In this document: positions 8,917 through 16,437 of the stretch, piece by piece
How positions within the stretch are numbered: position 1 is the stretch's first letter
Layout: each line of letters starts with the position of its first letter
IMG/VR virus record: IMGVR_UViG_3300009180_000247
Coordinates: 1-21,833 of that record
Length of the DNA stretch: 21,833 bases
Direction: 5' to 3' (one strand)
From: a virus
Program-made: the position numbers and the translations under genes
Notes under the pieces: generated by a model
What the model saw: the letters and a program-made list of their open reading frames with translations, nothing else
Database searches by the model: none
What the model was told of the DNA's origin: nothing

Positions 8917-9322
8917 CAAGTCTTCATTCGATTTGGACTTCGGCTATGGCCGTAAGGGTGAGAAACTAGTAGAAGAACTACTTACTGGTGGCAAGACTGT
9001 CGAAGTAAAGCGCGACAGGAAGTGGTGGATTACTAACAACCTTTACATTGAGGTTGAGTGCTGGTTCATGAAGTCTAAATCATGGGAGCCATCAGGCTTG
9101 ATGGTTACTGAGGCTGCATACTGGGCGTTCGTACTAGAACAAACAGTTGTTATTGTACCAACGCATATCCTTAAGAAGGGTGTGCTTGAATTAGGTAGAG
9201 AAATCTCATGCGAGATACCACCTAACAAAAGCAAGGGCTATTTAATTACTGTAGAAGATTTACTATCCATGAGTCGTAAGTATAAGAATGAGAAAGTTGA
9301 TGATGGACTGGAAGCTAATTGA
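8909..9322 (+). CDS. PD-(D/E)XK-like phage nuclease
   Basis: 137 residues. Glu18 in GRKGEKLVEELL, Glu32-Val-Lys34 in TVEVKRD, and NNLYIEVECW (44-52) followed by PSGLMVTEA form the restriction-endonuclease-like core seen in many small phage proteins that contain E-x-K-x-D and an NLYIE strand. This is the third such fold in the operon. Probable roles are resolvase, recombination nuclease or host DNA degradation. It overlaps the previous gene by 8 nt with AGGAAAG ahead of the ATG. Confidence 0.7.
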   Translation: MTNKSSFDLDFGYGRKGEKLVEELLTGGKTVEVKRDRKWWITNNLYIEVECWFMKSKSWEPSGLMVTEAAYWAFVLEQTVVIVPTHILKKGVLELGREISCEIPPNKSKGYLITVEDLLSMSRKYKNEKVDDGLEAN

Positions 9323-10296: not shown

Positions 10297-10441
10297 TGAA
10301 CTTAACTGGCGTTGGATTAATTATTCTGCGCATTATTCGTAAGCAGTATTGACAAGAAGGACATTCATCCCTCTCTTCTATCTTGCGATAGTGTTCCTCT
10401 GATGTATTGCAATCGTCACATCGGTACTCATAGTTGGGCAT
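10265..10441 (-). CDS. FmdB-type zinc ribbon protein
   Basis: 58 residues beginning MPNYEYRCDDC and carrying CPSCQYC later: Cys8, Cys11, Cys27 and Cys30 form the zinc ribbon of the FmdB family. The C-terminus PVKFNATGFYSTGG matches that family's conserved end (P-V-x-F-x-x-x-GFY). FmdB proteins are small putative regulators. The ATG overlaps the previous stop as TAATG. Confidence 0.85.
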   Translation of the reverse strand: MPNYEYRCDDCNTSEEHYRKIEERDECPSCQYCLRIMRRIINPTPVKFNATGFYSTGG

Positions 10442-10608
10442 TAGTATGGCCCCTGTCCCGTGTCTCGTTGCTCTTGCATGTTGATGTTACCAGTGAATGG
10501 TGGTGGTGGTTCTGAATATCTCCATGGGTCAGAGGCTTCATCAACCATTTCACTTATCAATTGGTTCATGTTTTGTTTCTTGATTAGTTCATGTAAGAAC
10601 TCGGTCAT
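10441..10608 (-). CDS. Small hypothetical protein
   Basis: 55 residues. A helical N-terminus (FLHELIKKQNMNQLISEMV) is followed by DPWRYSEPPPPFTGNIN and a polar tail. It begins in an ATGA overlap with the upstream zinc-ribbon gene and ends in TAATG with the FmdB-type gene, so it is locked into the operon. A GGGGTGA ribosome site lies 5 nt ahead. No domain was recognised. Confidence 0.7.
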   Translation of the reverse strand: MTEFLHELIKKQNMNQLISEMVDEASDPWRYSEPPPPFTGNINMQEQRDTGQGPY

Positions 10609-12522: not shown

Positions 12523-13377
12523 TTATAGTGAGCTGAACAGGTCATAGTCCTTCTTGCTTGACCATTGTCTATCGGGTGTGTAGCATAGGCAGTCTATGAT
12601 ACTGGTATCACAGTCGAAGCATATCTCACACATGTTGCAGTAGTATGGATTCTCATGCATATCTACGAGTGTCTCGCAGTTAGGGCAGAGGTCTATTACT
12701 TCTTCCCCTTCTTCTTGATAGTAGTGCTTGAGTGCATAGTCATAGGCTAGTTGCTCTGCCTTGTCTAAGTCCCTTGCTGGTGCTTGCCATACTGTAGAGG
12801 GGGTGGTATATGTGGTGCGCTTATGCGACTGATTACTCCACCATATACCAGCATTGTCCCATGTACCTAAGTTCTCATTGACTAGGTAGATTTGGTGCTT
12901 GGCACTAGGGTCTAAGGTTAGGATACATATCTTGCTACCACTAGCCCACTTGCTAACCATAGTCCATACTGTGTCATTGTCAAGTACCGACACGCCACCC
13001 ATAAGTGGCAAGGTATCCTCTGCGAATACTCTAGTGTCGCTACGCTTATCTGATTTCTCAATCGTTACATCTAGTATACCATTGTGTGCTAGGTATGTCA
13101 AGTCTGAATTGCCAACCTTGAATGGGTGGCAGTTAGCCTCGTTCTTAACACCATGCGTGGCGTATCGTGCGTGCCACATGGCGTAGCCGTTAGGATATTG
13201 CTTACGCAATTCCAAGAATCGTGCAATAGATTTTTTAGCAGACATACTACGCTCTGATATGATAGTATCTCCAGCGATAATGGCAAAGCCATAACCGTGA
13301 GGATTACTACACGCACCATTGTGTAGGTCTGTCTTGGTTGGTGTGCTATTGGGTTCACACACCACAAGGATACACAT
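12523..13377 (-). CDS. Class II glutamine amidotransferase with C-terminal zinc cluster
   Basis: 284 residues. The Ntn nucleophile is Cys2, exposed after Met removal. GATase II signatures follow: GYGFAII (28-34), WHARYATHG (68-76, with His69 and Arg71), NCHPF (82-86), LAHNGIL (96-102) and SDT (113-115). These bind glutamine and release ammonia. The synthase domain found in PurF or GlmS is missing; instead residues 230-265 hold eight Cys in CxxC pairs (CPNC, CNMC, CFDC, CLC). Ammonia must therefore go to a partner, most likely the amidoligase encoded 8 nt upstream in the same operon. GAGGTGATGT precedes the ATG. Confidence 0.85.
   Translation of the reverse strand: MCILVVCEPNSTPTKTDLHNGACSNPHGYGFAIIAGDTIISERSMSAKKSIARFLELRKQYPNGYAMWHARYATHGVKNEANCHPFKVGNSDLTYLAHNGILDVTIEKSDKRSDTRVFAEDTLPLMGGVSVLDNDTVWTMVSKWASGSKICILTLDPSAKHQIYLVNENLGTWDNAGIWWSNQSHKRTTYTTPSTVWQAPARDLDKAEQLAYDYALKHYYQEEGEEVIDLCPNCETLVDMHENPYYCNMCEICFDCDTSIIDCLCYTPDRQWSSKKDYDLFSSL
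13073..13101 (-). promoter_or_regulatory. Consensus promoter inside the amidotransferase gene
   Basis: On the minus strand TTGACA (13101-13096), 17 bp, TATACT (13078-13073). It lies over the codons for SDLTYLAHNGIL. It matches the promoters before the other leftward sub-operons and would add transcripts for everything from about 13066 leftward. It may be chance, given that the HNG codons are constrained. Confidence 0.5.
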
Positions 13378-13385
13378 ACATCACC

Positions 13386-14711
13386 TCATGCATTCTCTAG
13401 TGTTGGGTTGGTTATATCTACGCCCGATACCTTATAGATTCGGGAGTATAGGTCGGGATATAGTCCGTTGTTATCTCGTACATAATCAACGAACCATGTC
13501 CAGTCTAGCGCACCTAACTTGACCTCGTCAAGTCGTAGGTCTCTAGTGTATTCTACCATGGCTTGCGCTAAGTCAAGTGCCGATAGAATAGTGCTGACAT
13601 TCATAGTACCACGAAAGAACCTAAGTTCTAGCGTGCCTTGATTCTGCGTATTGACCGCAGAATATCTTTCCGTATTGCTACGGCGTGGGTCTGCTAACTT
13701 GTGCTTGAACGACTTGACTGGTTGGTCATACTGGTTGAAGGTATAGACATCATTGAACCTAGCATAATCGGACTTGCGACCACCGAACTTCATCATGTAT
13801 TCTGCATTAGAATACACGAATGATATGAAGCGGTGCATGTGCGCACCACTTGAGAAGCCAGCGCGAGAGACATGGATATGTATGCCACAGGATTTGGTAT
13901 CCCATGACCTAGCACCATAGTCTAGGCGTAGCGTGTTGATAATATTCCATAGTGTATCACTATGTTCTCGATATTGCAAGTGAGTATGTGGTTGTGTCAC
14001 TATCTCGAACCCGTCATACCCGTCACGACTGATACTGCCGTCATGCTTGATGATACCGATTTTATTTTCTAGTAGAGCGTTGGACGCGTATTCGGATGCA
14101 CCGTCTAGGCTACCGCCTTGAATCTGTGTCTCCAACTCTAGCCCCATATAAAGCCCACTCTTGGACTCGCCATGGAATACTAGCGGTGGCTTGCAGTTGT
14201 AGTCGTGTATAACCTTACGGCAATTACACTCACGACCAACGATAGATGGGTTGCCACTCTGTGTATTCTCACAGTTGCTACACTCATCACCTTCACGATT
14301 ATACTGGTCACAATCGTTACAGTACCATGCGTGTCGGCTAGTGCAGTCATCACACCATGTATCATTATTTATATGATAGTAGTCACTTCTGTCGCTGTAA
14401 CTAGTGCCACAAGGCTCACAATAGAATGTGTTATTCTCGTAGCAATACTCACACCATGACTCATCTTCAACGAAGTAATCGTCACCTGAGAAGGCACTAT
14501 TGCAACGCTCACAATACTTACCGCAAGATTGACAATAGTAACTACTGCCGTCACTAATCGAGTCGTCTGTGCTGGTCAATTCCTCGCAAGACTCGCACCA
14601 TACGGTACAATTCTCACAAGCAATAGAGCCGTCACCGAATCGGCGTTCCGTCTCATCATCTATGATTTGGTCGCATAGACTACATATAATATCTTCTACT
14701 TCTTCTGCCAT
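13386..14711 (-). CDS. Amidoligase (COOH-NH2 ligase) with large N-terminal zinc-ribbon array
   Basis: 441 residues in two parts. Residues 10-150 carry ten CxxC pairs (Cys10/13, 32/35, 39/42, 60/63, 67/70, 87/90, 98/101, 120/123, 131/134, 144/147), spaced like a string of LIM- or ribbon-type zinc modules. Residues 180-400 match the glutamine-synthetase-like Amidoligase_2 fold: GLELET (190-195, metal-binding Glu192/Glu194), HDGS (223-226) with a later Glu236, CGIHIHVSR (275-283), and LELRFFRGT (361-369). Such enzymes use ATP to join a carboxylate to an amine. Substrate and product are unknown; the zinc array could recruit a protein or nucleic-acid target. Its own consensus promoter lies at 14746. 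Confidence 0.85.
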   Translation of the reverse strand: MAEEVEDIICSLCDQIIDDETERRFGDGSIACENCTVWCESCEELTSTDDSISDGSSYYCQSCGKYCERCNSAFSGDDYFVEDESWCEYCYENNTFYCEPCGTSYSDRSDYYHINNDTWCDDCTSRHAWYCNDCDQYNREGDECSNCENTQSGNPSIVGRECNCRKVIHDYNCKPPLVFHGESKSGLYMGLELETQIQGGSLDGASEYASNALLENKIGIIKHDGSISRDGYDGFEIVTQPHTHLQYREHSDTLWNIINTLRLDYGARSWDTKSCGIHIHVSRAGFSSGAHMHRFISFVYSNAEYMMKFGGRKSDYARFNDVYTFNQYDQPVKSFKHKLADPRRSNTERYSAVNTQNQGTLELRFFRGTMNVSTILSALDLAQAMVEYTRDLRLDEVKLGALDWTWFVDYVRDNNGLYPDLYSRIYKVSGVDITNPTLENA

Positions 14712-14745: not shown

Positions 14746-14774
14746 AGTATAGCATAATCTTATTTAGTTGTCAA
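14746..14774 (-). promoter_or_regulatory. Consensus promoter of the amidoligase module
   Basis: Minus strand: TTGACA (14774-14769), 17-bp spacer, TGC-extended TATACT (14751-14746). The predicted start is near 14739, about 28 nt before the amidoligase ATG with its GGAAGGGAG ribosome site. The -35 overlaps the 3' end of the preceding gene. Confidence 0.85.
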
Positions 14775-15190: not shown

Positions 15191-15219
15191 AGTATAGCAT
15201 AGATTCGACACCTTGTCAA
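15191..15219 (-). promoter_or_regulatory. Consensus promoter of the 15163 leftward sub-operon
   Basis: Minus strand: TTGACA (15219-15214), 17-bp spacer ending in TGC, TATACT (15196-15191). The start is predicted near 15184, about 20 nt before the zinc-ribbon ATG. Confidence 0.85.
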
Positions 15220-15224
15220 ATCGT

Positions 15225-15269
15225 GCCACGCTAGGTCGTGAACCTATGTAGCCTATCACTAGGCGTGGC
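15225..15269. other. Predicted three-way-junction structure
   Basis: Three perfect 5-bp stems: outer GCCAC/GTGGC (15225-15229 with 15265-15269), TAGGT/ACCTA (15232-15236 with 15242-15246, loop CGTGA) and GCCTA/TAGGC (15251-15255 with 15260-15264, loop TCAC). A rival fold pairs GCCACGCTAG with CTAGGCGTGGC (one bulge). It lies between the stop of the 15550 gene and the promoter at 15191. It could end or process the upstream transcript, or act as a structured RNA. Confidence 0.5.
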
Positions 15270-15274
15270 GTATC

Positions 15275-15550
15275 CTACTTATTGTGGATATTAAGGTTAA
15301 GGTGTGGCGCGGTGTCGGCGGTAGCCAACTTAGCCACTAGTGCTAATGCGGTTGCTTCATCTAGGGTAGGCAGTACGCGTTCCACCTTGGGGCGATTACT
15401 TGTCACCTTGCCATTACGGGTGCGCTTGAAGGCGCGACCATTTGGCGTGTCGTGTAGTCGCCACCCCGTAGAGCCTAGTCTGCGACTAGTTACTATAGGG
15501 CGTATAGGTGTCATCACGATACTACCGCTTCCCCCGTAAGGGTTAGGCAT
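15275..15550 (-). CDS. Basic protein of unknown function, first gene of the leftward operon
   Basis: 91 residues from ATG 15550, preceded by GCGAAAGGATACCACC. The N-terminus is Gly/Pro-rich (PNPYGGSGS), the middle is strongly basic (TSRRLGSTGWRLH, AFKRTRNGKVTSNRPK) and the C-terminus is helical (LDEATALALVAKLA). The charge suggests nucleic-acid binding. Since it is the first product of the tandem promoter array, it may be an early takeover or regulatory protein. No family was recognised. Confidence 0.65.
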   Translation of the reverse strand: MPNPYGGSGSIVMTPIRPIVTSRRLGSTGWRLHDTPNGRAFKRTRNGKVTSNRPKVERVLPTLDEATALALVAKLATADTAPHLNLNIHNK

Positions 15551-15595
15551 GGTGGTATCCTTTCGCATAGGGTATCTCCCTGTGCTAGTGCGCTA

Positions 15596-15612
15596 ATCGG
15601 TAGCGAGCCGAT
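15596..15612. promoter_or_regulatory. Dyad at the start site of promoter P4
   Basis: ATCGG (15596-15600), 7 nt, CCGAT (15608-15612), directly downstream of the -10 at 15613-15618 and so over the predicted start site. Candidate operator. Confidence 0.45.
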
Positions 15613-15641
15613 AAGATACCATAGTATCTAGCGCGTGTCAA
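15613..15641 (-). promoter_or_regulatory. Tandem leftward promoter P4 (nearest the genes)
   Basis: Minus strand: TTGACA (15641-15636), 17-bp spacer, TATCTT (15618-15613). The spacer and -10 contain the inverted repeat AGATAC-TATG-GTATCT. The start is predicted near 15606, 56 nt upstream of the first leftward ATG. Confidence 0.75.
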
Positions 15642-15681
15642 GTGTTAATGGATATGGTAGTGATACCACGGGCGACCCGCT

Positions 15682-15693
15682 GTTACTAGTAAC
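15682..15693. promoter_or_regulatory. Dyad at the start site of promoter P3
   Basis: The perfect 12-bp palindrome GTTACTAGTAAC lies 1 nt downstream of the P3 -10 element, over the predicted start site. A second ACTAGT overlaps its edge, giving tandem ACTAGT copies. Confidence 0.5.
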
Positions 15694-15694
15694 T

Positions 15695-15723
15695 AGTCTA
15701 GCATATCCATATTCACTTGTCAA
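15695..15723 (-). promoter_or_regulatory. Tandem leftward promoter P3
   Basis: Minus strand: TTGACA (15723-15718), 17-bp spacer ending in TGC, TAGACT (15700-15695). It is 82 bp upstream of P4. Confidence 0.75.
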
Positions 15724-15752
15724 GTGATAGCCAACCAACCGACTATCGGGTT

Positions 15753-15769
15753 GCACCCTTGTGGGGTGC
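15753..15769. promoter_or_regulatory. Dyad downstream of promoter P2
   Basis: GCACCC (15753-15758), loop TTGTG, GGGTGC (15764-15769). It begins about 10 nt after the P2 -10, at or just after the predicted start site, with a second small dyad CCGACTATCGG at 15740-15750. Operator or leader hairpins. Confidence 0.45.
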
Positions 15770-15779
15770 TTGTGGGGTA

Positions 15780-15808
15780 AGTGTAACACACTTGCCCTAC
15801 CTTGTCAA
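15780..15808 (-). promoter_or_regulatory. Tandem leftward promoter P2
   Basis: Minus strand: TTGACA (15808-15803), 17-bp spacer, TACACT (15785-15780). It is 85 bp upstream of P3. Confidence 0.75.
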
Positions 15809-15864
15809 ATCTTGCAATATCGGCGTGTCGTGAGACTTGCCTAGTGCTTGACTTGATGACAGGT

Positions 15865-15893
15865 ACTTTACCCTATCGGCTCACGCTTGTCAA
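15865..15893 (-). promoter_or_regulatory. Tandem leftward promoter P1 (farthest upstream)
   Basis: Minus strand: TTGACA (15893-15888), 17-bp spacer, TAAAGT (15870-15865). It is 85 bp upstream of P2. The nonamer repeats begin at its -35 edge. Confidence 0.7.
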
Positions 15894-15919
15894 GAGGACA
15901 ATTCGGACATGTCGGACAT
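15893..15919. repeat. Three tandem nonamers ending in GGACA(T)
   Basis: AGAGGACAA, TTCGGACAT, GTCGGACAT follow one another without gaps. Related 9-mers recur at 15958, 16005 and 16023. They abut promoter P1 on its upstream side. Confidence 0.65.
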
Positions 15920-15925
15920 TAACCA

Positions 15926-15941
15926 TGTGATTTAGGTCACA
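15926..15941. promoter_or_regulatory. Crp/GlxR-type operator
   Basis: TGTGA-TTTAGG-TCACA is a perfect match to the actinobacterial GlxR/Crp consensus TGTGA-NN-TA-NN-TCACA. Its centre is about 75 bp upstream of the predicted P1 start site, a distance at which Crp-type activators can act. Confidence 0.6.
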
Positions 15942-15957
15942 CCCCCATAAGGTACAT

Positions 15958-15975
15958 ATCAGACATATCGGGCAT
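15958..15975. repeat. Tandem nonamer pair
   Basis: ATCAGACAT followed directly by ATCGGGCAT, same family as the repeats at 15893-15919. Confidence 0.5.
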
Positions 15976-16004
15976 GGAATCACAATTCGGAATTATACAT
16001 TTAA

Positions 16005-16040
16005 TAAGGACATAGCCCCCAAATTGGACATTTAAGACAT
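16005..16040. repeat. Nonamer single copy and tandem pair
   Basis: TAAGGACAT at 16005-16013, then ATTGGACAT at 16023-16031 followed directly by TTAAGACAT at 16032-16040. All copies in the region have the same orientation. Confidence 0.55.
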
Positions 16041-16246: not shown

Positions 16247-16300
16247 AAAAATACTTAGTCAGAATGTGTTCGTTTTAGCACTTTGAACAGGTTATCTATT

Positions 16301-16316
16301 ATGTAATGAATTACAT
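16301..16316. promoter_or_regulatory. 16-bp perfect dyad, candidate operator of the late operon
   Basis: ATGTAAT-GA-ATTACAT, located 120 nt upstream of the terminase start. Its 7-bp arms and 2-bp centre suit a dimeric repressor or activator. Confidence 0.55.
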
Positions 16317-16318
16317 AC

Positions 16319-16348
16319 GGAGTCGCTCCGTTAAGACTCCGCGACTCC
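16319..16348. other. Stem-loop upstream of the terminase gene
   Basis: GGAGTCGC (16319-16326) pairs with GCGACTCC (16341-16348). An alternative uses GACTCC at 16335-16340, and CGGAG-TCG-CTCCG forms a smaller hairpin. It is followed by 30 nt of almost pure A/T. Switching between folds is possible if transcribed. Confidence 0.5.
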
Positions 16349-16437
16349 TATATATTATATATATATAATTATATAATGGGAGAGTTATATCGCTATACAG
16401 GGACCGTTATAAGAGCGATTAACAAGGGGATTAACTG

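Follow-up and report, generated by a model that had tools for sequence, protein, structure and literature searches.

A candidate tandem early-promoter region over a structured-RNA leader in a freshwater actinophage

Why should a phage set four identical −35 boxes one after another ahead of its leftward genes, at steps of 82 to 85 bp, and let the −10 hexamers differ? We addressed this question on a 21,833-nucleotide stretch of viral DNA (hereafter the window; features in Table 1), in which the initial annotation had seen a graded or combinatorial early-promoter array stepping at about eight helical turns. As part of an overall reading to which we give an even chance, the locus serves as control region for the early leftward genes of a freshwater actinophage akin to the cultured Planktophila phages E7 and F5. 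In its terminase, the virus shares 80–99% identity with many metagenomic phages, 79% with a pair of records under the name Caudovirales sp. ct2KA10 and roughly 44% with Streptomyces phages. The ct2KA10 record LanE43-AprF5 is Planktophila phage F5, which belongs to the first pair of phages brought into culture on 'Ca. Nanopelagicales' (PMC10202952). A terminase relative was also sought in bacterial genomes for host inference and none was found, and the ladder region had no DNA similarity to deposited phages. Very little is known about gene regulation in phages of the lake-abundant acI/Nanopelagicales bacteria; what is gained here is an early control region that relatives keep, together with a family of repeated RNA elements that is absent from Rfam.

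Judging by relatives, the first leftward gene may start at an internal ATG at 15550 instead of at the start of the ORF. Below the array, the leftward genes comprise, among others, an amidoligase-like gene, a gene that weakly resembles glutamine amidotransferases and a WhiB-like regulator; a sigma-like gene at 9288 lies on the opposite strand to them. The amidoligase-like and glutamine-amidotransferase-like genes adjoin within the early operon (12526–14711) and are possibly a peptide- or cell-wall-modifying pair.

Table 1. Positions of the features discussed in the text, numbered along the window
Feature	Position	Strand	Description
Whole stretch	1–21,833		IMG/VR virus record IMGVR_UViG_3300009180_000247, positions 1 to 21,833
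CRP/GlxR-like palindrome	15926–15941	.	TGTGATTTAGGTCACA; exact TGTGA-N6-TCACA pattern, upstream of P1
TGTCC repeats	15896–15919	−	ATGTCCGAC-ATGTCCGAAT-TGTCC, just upstream of P1; conserved in relatives
P1 (candidate promoter)	15865–15893	−	TTGACA-17-TAAAGT; −35 at 15888–15893; conserved in relatives
P2 (candidate promoter)	15780–15808	−	TTGACA-17-TACACT; −35 at 15803–15808; −10 within hairpin 2a
P3 (candidate promoter)	15695–15723	−	TTGACA-17-TAGACT; −35 at 15718–15723
P4 (candidate promoter)	15613–15641	−	TTGACA-17-TATCTT; −35 at 15636–15641
P5 (candidate promoter)	15191–15219	−	TTGACA-17-TATACT; downstream of the ladder
P6 (candidate promoter)	14746–14774	−	TTGACA-17-TATACT; precedes the amidoligase-like gene
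Unit 1	15809–15887	−	Leader; weak, variable structure, not clearly folded
Unit 2	15726–15800	−	Hairpins 15772–15800, 15753–15769 and 15726–15747
Unit 3	15649–15709	−	Long covarying helix, inner hairpin 15668–15680; P3 −10 inside
Unit 4	15590–15634	−	tRNA-like three-way junction; P4 −10 inside
Hairpin	15565–15585	−	Ahead of the first leftward gene's ribosome-binding site; stem varies in sequence among relatives
First leftward gene	15275–15568	−	97-aa ORF, function unassigned
Second tRNA-like three-way junction	15225–15269	−	5 nt after the stop of the 97-aa ORF, upstream of P5

The promoter ladder and its upstream sites

The four minus-strand TTGACA boxes, each with a −10-like hexamer at exactly 17 bp, were all found where the initial annotation had placed them, and the start-to-start spacings of 85, 85 and 82 bp were reproduced in the window. 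Such a cluster is not expected by chance: four TTGACA-N16–18-TANNNT sites lie within 341 bp, whereas 5000 dinucleotide shuffles gave 0.0032 on average and never more than 1. The TG of an extended −10 is present at three of the four ladder promoters, and the −35 region of P3, CTTGACAAG, is itself palindromic. Tandem duplication was ruled out as the origin of the ladder, as no repeat unit of such length was found.

We then looked at the ladder in relatives. The array and its 17-bp spacer are kept, with successive spacings of 85–102, 85–91 and 81–92 bp in close relatives and of 97–105, 70–75 and 87–89 bp in four more distant ones (L106, L107, L109 and L112), whose amidoligases are only 45–53% identical to that of the window and whose four sites are still in order, the first one of L112 being TTGACT. 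Neighboring sites thus lie 70–105 bp apart across relatives, and the proposed helically phased period of about 85 bp is not supported: already in close relatives that spacing is lost, but the ladder is not. Over 71 distinct TTGACA leader contexts, a TANNNT hexamer follows at 17 bp in 54, at 18 bp in 9 and at 16 bp in 2; a second peak at 12 bp apparently comes from the TACTAT motif of Unit 4. The ladder is confined to this subclade, since the wider group (terminase identity of about 84% or less) and phage F5 have at most scattered single candidates; the phages known to carry it are all uncultured. In some relatives P5 takes the form of a TTGACA...TGTCAA hairpin. The leaders of L118 and L122 have, in place of P1 and P2, a different region with repeated TTTTCACA motifs, which suggests promoter rewiring while the downstream RNA units persist.

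In 10 of the 12 leaders that have both, the distance between the CRP-like palindrome and the P1 −35 is exactly 47 nt; the exceptions are L127, where the site is duplicated and lies at 41 and 57 nt, and L135 (25 nt). Other distances are found in the distant group. Taken together, the conservation of the spacer, of the CRP-like site and of the ladder provides independent signs of real promoters, above all for P1. From these signs we infer, within the evenly rated reading given above, that P1–P4 (plus P5 and P6) are sigma-A-type promoters which would drive the leftward operon.

Several other sequence features lie upstream or in related genomes. Palindromes similar to the CRP-like one are found ahead of early genes in F5 and other relatives. 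Repeats of the ATGTCC type, in steps of about 10 bp, occupy 15896–15919 and about 15950–16040, are conserved in relatives and are possibly an array of sites for some regulator. Between 16080 and 16138, two 23-bp repeats, GATATRTCKATTTATCGACAATT, adjoin a TTGTCGCTTGAGCGAC palindrome, and this may be an origin or a regulator site. Finally, an AT-rich segment between the early region and the terminase gene (16296–16374) contains a strong GC hairpin (GGAGTCG...CGACTCC) that is conserved with altered stems in L118, L130 and L131; its Rfam match is microRNA-like and was dismissed as chance.

Covarying modules in the leader

Across aligned relatives, the stretches between the −35 boxes change in step, and they are covarying RNA structures, which within the same reading would fold in the cell. 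The three hairpins of Unit 2 are found in most relatives with differing stem sequences, as judged by a comparison of folds with no pair-count test. For Unit 3 (16 sequences), 98.8% of the cells are paired, double or compensatory changes occur at 13 of 16 pairs, and the covariation score is 0.730, compared with 0.211 for shuffled alignments and at most 0.173 when the structure is slid. Unit 4 is made of a stem (GCGCTA/TAGCGC) and two hairpins (GATAC-TATG-GTATC and ATCGG-CTCGCTA-CCGAT); 94.7% of its cells are paired, 11 of 16 pairs show compensatory change, and it scores 0.466 compared with 0.111 when shuffled. No Rfam family was matched by the leader units or by the related elements described below.

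Which strand carries the RNA can be read from wobble pairs. Unit 3 has 25 G-U against 2 A-C, with 15 of the G-U at a single position; for the element before P5 the count is 9 G-U against none, 8 of the 9 coming from one pair that is maybe mis-registered. This excess of G-U over A-C favors the leftward transcript. Neither kind of pair occurs in Unit 4, and for Units 2 and 4 the opposite strand gives a slightly better fold. On sequence criteria the RNA strand is settled only for Unit 3 and, through the orientation of all its matches, for the element family; for these two, wobble pairs and match orientation do not support an RNA from the rightward strand.

The −10 hexamers sit within or at the stems of the modules, and this accounts for what had been noticed in the window. 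The dyads reported at the start sites are real and turn out to be parts of larger covarying structures extending upstream of the starts. Likewise, the −35 is invariant and the −10 variable, as described, but covarying RNA stems rather than graded promoter strength account for the variation. The step of about 85 bp would then be the length of an RNA module and not helical phasing. Promoters and structures are nevertheless lost separately. The −35 and −10 of P3 are missing in several relatives that retain Unit 3. Structure persists without its promoter in L118/L021, a single contig, for both Unit 3 and Unit 4, and in L119, L122, L131 and L135 for Unit 3. Conversely, P4 is present with no Unit 4 match in L111, L114 and L131. 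Neither layer is a by-product of the other.

A tRNA-like family after stop codons

A model of Unit 4 matched the element before P5 (15216–15276, E=0.0014) as well as elements in far relatives. By these model matches, Unit 4 and the element before P5 are members of a clade-wide family of RNA three-way junctions of about 47 nt with a T-arm-like hairpin. The third family model gave 86 matches in 77 sources, all on the early-coding strand, with up to four copies per record; it matches 17 of the 20 long related phage records, and in F5 there is one weaker match (E=0.025), located between two genes at 10441–10494 of record L136. A 19-nt core is matched exactly in 39 viral contigs. By the same exact-match search, no bacterial or archaeal genome of the GTDB collection contains this core, and a host origin of the elements was rejected. 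We found no earlier description of them in the open-licence literature.

Each element consists of an acceptor-like stem of 6–7 bp and two hairpins, one to the side and the other, which carries a 7-nt loop, directly on the 3' strand of the acceptor. The loop is mostly TTCACGA, with a subset of canonical T-loops such as TTCGAGT, and has TC at positions 2–3. The sets behind the counts of features and of placement, like the 26-element family alignment, were partly selected by pairing and these counts are descriptive only: 11 nt separate the loop from the acceptor end in 42 of 50 elements, the first acceptor pair is G-C in 42 of 51, AC follows the acceptor in 47 of 51, and 51 of the 62 elements with an upstream ORF start 5–10 nt after its stop. 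The acceptor was tested on a set picked by loop and side-hairpin sequence and not by acceptor pairing; with nine different acceptors, 6.95 of 7 pairs are formed on average, compared with 5.18 after shuffling. Of the tRNA features, the elements have the stacking of an acceptor on a T-arm whose loop is 7 nt long, and they lack the 3' RCC(A), the CCA, the D arm and the anticodon arm. Neither ARAGORN nor the Rfam tRNA model calls the elements tRNA; in relatives, Rfam recovered true tRNAs and unrelated weak matches and no element.

Most elements end 35–60 nt ahead of the next start, in gaps of about 100 nt. Among the 33 stops examined before elements, 26 are TAG, 7 are TAA and none is TGA, compared with 46 TAG, 117 TAA and 102 TGA for leftward ORFs generally, a contrast that is inflated by kinship among the phages. 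All the stops in these 33 cases are codons of release factor 1, in spite of the frequency of TGA among leftward ORFs. A role of the element in stimulating readthrough of the stop is not supported: the length over which the frame stays open beyond the stop differs widely, and the following gene occupies no constant frame.

Readings of the locus and known systems

Building on the anatomy, covariation, conservation and placement demonstrated above, we propose a tandem early-promoter region over a structured-RNA leader, whose modules would act as cis punctuation of the early transcript; we consider it an even bet. P1, probably aided by a CRP/GlxR-type factor, and the tandem P2–P4 (plus P5 and P6) would drive the leftward operon. 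The leader of about 300 nt would fold into successive covarying modules, about one for each rung, whose stems contain the −10s, and the tRNA-like elements lie in gaps of the early operon, mostly 5–10 nt past the stops. The modules would most likely be read like the acceptor/T-arm of a tRNA, with processing of the RNase P/Z type, or else affect the terminating ribosome. Since the expected start sites fall within the modules, each in its own, initiation at a lower promoter would cost the transcript the 5' arm of the module concerned; lower promoters would thus yield fewer intact modules, and the RNA content of the leader would depend on the promoter used. Against this explanation, Unit 1 is poorly structured, and the loop-to-end helix has 11 nt compared with 12 in tRNA. 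The lack of wobble pairs in Unit 4, the slightly better fold of Units 2 and 4 as the opposite strand, the missing CCA, D arm and anticodon arm together with the negative ARAGORN and Rfam calls, and the other CRP-site distances of the distant group also count against it.

A more specific version is in our opinion possible but rather doubtful. It holds that freshwater actinophages punctuate their early operon with tRNA-mimicking junctions placed 5–10 nt after release factor 1 stops, where the tRNA-processing or translation machinery of the host would cut or insulate the genes, and that the leader is built from such modules, their number being dialled by which of the four embedded promoters fires. 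The tie between element and stop codon makes a concrete question testable, namely whether tRNA mimicry separates operon genes. Two relatives are in culture, Planktophila phages E7 and F5, and the weaker element of F5 is well placed.

The position of the elements after stops also suits ribosome termination structures, which would keep terminated ribosomes from sliding or re-initiating and so insulate the early genes, the leader modules being relatives recruited to the 5' end. The 5–10 nt distance, the gaps of about 100 nt and the choice of TAG or TAA over TGA (0 of 33) agree with this role. Such structures need stability only, whereas in the elements a particular loop, a strand of 11 nt and the AC at the 3' end are conserved, and Units 2–4, upstream of the first gene, are left unexplained; we judge this reading unlikely. 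Somewhat similar objections meet the view, which we find very improbable, that the structures are REP-like mRNA stabilizers blocking exonucleases at gene ends and at the 5' end and tuning transcript half-lives: repeated structures do occupy operon gaps right after stops in up to four copies per record, but a simple barrier needs no conserved tRNA-like loop or 3' tail.

The two other readings concern the leader itself. In a put-like antitermination, the nascent leader RNA would bind RNA polymerase and suppress pausing or termination across the early operon, and P2–P4 would mainly be −10-like (and −35-like) pause signals for module folding instead of starts. Structured RNA does lie directly downstream of an early promoter with −10-like hexamers inside its stems, and the −10-like sequence in the HK022 putL RNA has been proposed as a sigma-dependent pause aiding folding (PMC9378689). 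Full TTGACA boxes at 17 bp across diverged relatives nevertheless exceed the needs of a pause, P4 persists where Unit 4 is absent, and the same elements recur between genes, and we regard this mechanism as quite unlikely. We also find it very improbable that the locus contains plain redundant tandem early promoters whose stems are DNA palindromes (operators or cruciforms) and not RNA. The palindromic −35 region of P3, the hairpin form of P5 in some relatives and the lack of wobble pairs in Unit 4 speak for it. However, stems that vary with compensation around fixed loops are the opposite of a protein-binding operator, G-U is far above A-C in Unit 3, and the structures outlive lost promoters.

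With the tandem-promoter and structured-leader reading in mind, we compared the locus with known systems. The T7 A1–A3 promoters are tandem early promoters of a lytic phage used by host RNA polymerase. The likeness is that several consensus promoters in tandem serve early genes in one direction; here, in contrast, the promoters are embedded in covarying RNA modules, a CRP-like site lies ahead, and the conserved step is the module length. The stoperator of cluster A mycobacteriophages has the complement of CTTGACA as its core, which shares positions with an early −35. Stoperators, which are asymmetric sites (PMC9283540), were rejected for the present boxes: the 13-bp consensus including its flank is not shared, and the TTGACA sites have unrelated flanks (by eye) and each a −10 at 17 bp.

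HK022 put is an RNA of about 70 nt with two stem-loops, present in two copies per genome (PMC9378689). In both cases a structured RNA follows directly on an early phage promoter and includes a −10-like sequence, but the present locus has several modules of other shapes, one type of which recurs between genes; compared by description, the position fits and the architecture differs. Ribosome termination structures are stable structures just downstream of stops, enriched where genes are at least 25 nt apart (PMC7518266). A stable structure directly after a stop codon is shared by 51 of the 62 elements and not by Units 2–4; ribosome termination structures are defined by folding energy only, whereas the elements share one fold with a conserved loop and tail and have one copy upstream of the first gene.

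Model substrates reduced to acceptor and T-arm are cleaved by RNase P (PMC11143913). The elements resemble them in the stacking of an acceptor-like stem and a T-arm-like hairpin whose loop has 7 nt, in a mostly G-C first pair, in A then C beyond the acceptor, and in canonical T-loops in a subset; they differ from tRNA by one short side hairpin in place of the D and anticodon arms, by 11 instead of 12 nt from loop to end and by the lack of CCA. The nearest repeated intergenic elements that we found for actinophages in the open-licence literature are the SAS/ESAS of cluster K mycobacteriophages, which are tied to start codons, have the 13-bp consensus GGGATAGGAGCCC, contain inverted repeats in about half of the cases and have no assigned function (PMC3203893). 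Like them, the present elements are repeated intergenic elements of an actinophage, mostly in one orientation; unlike them, they accompany stop codons, and it is their shape more than their stem sequence that is conserved.
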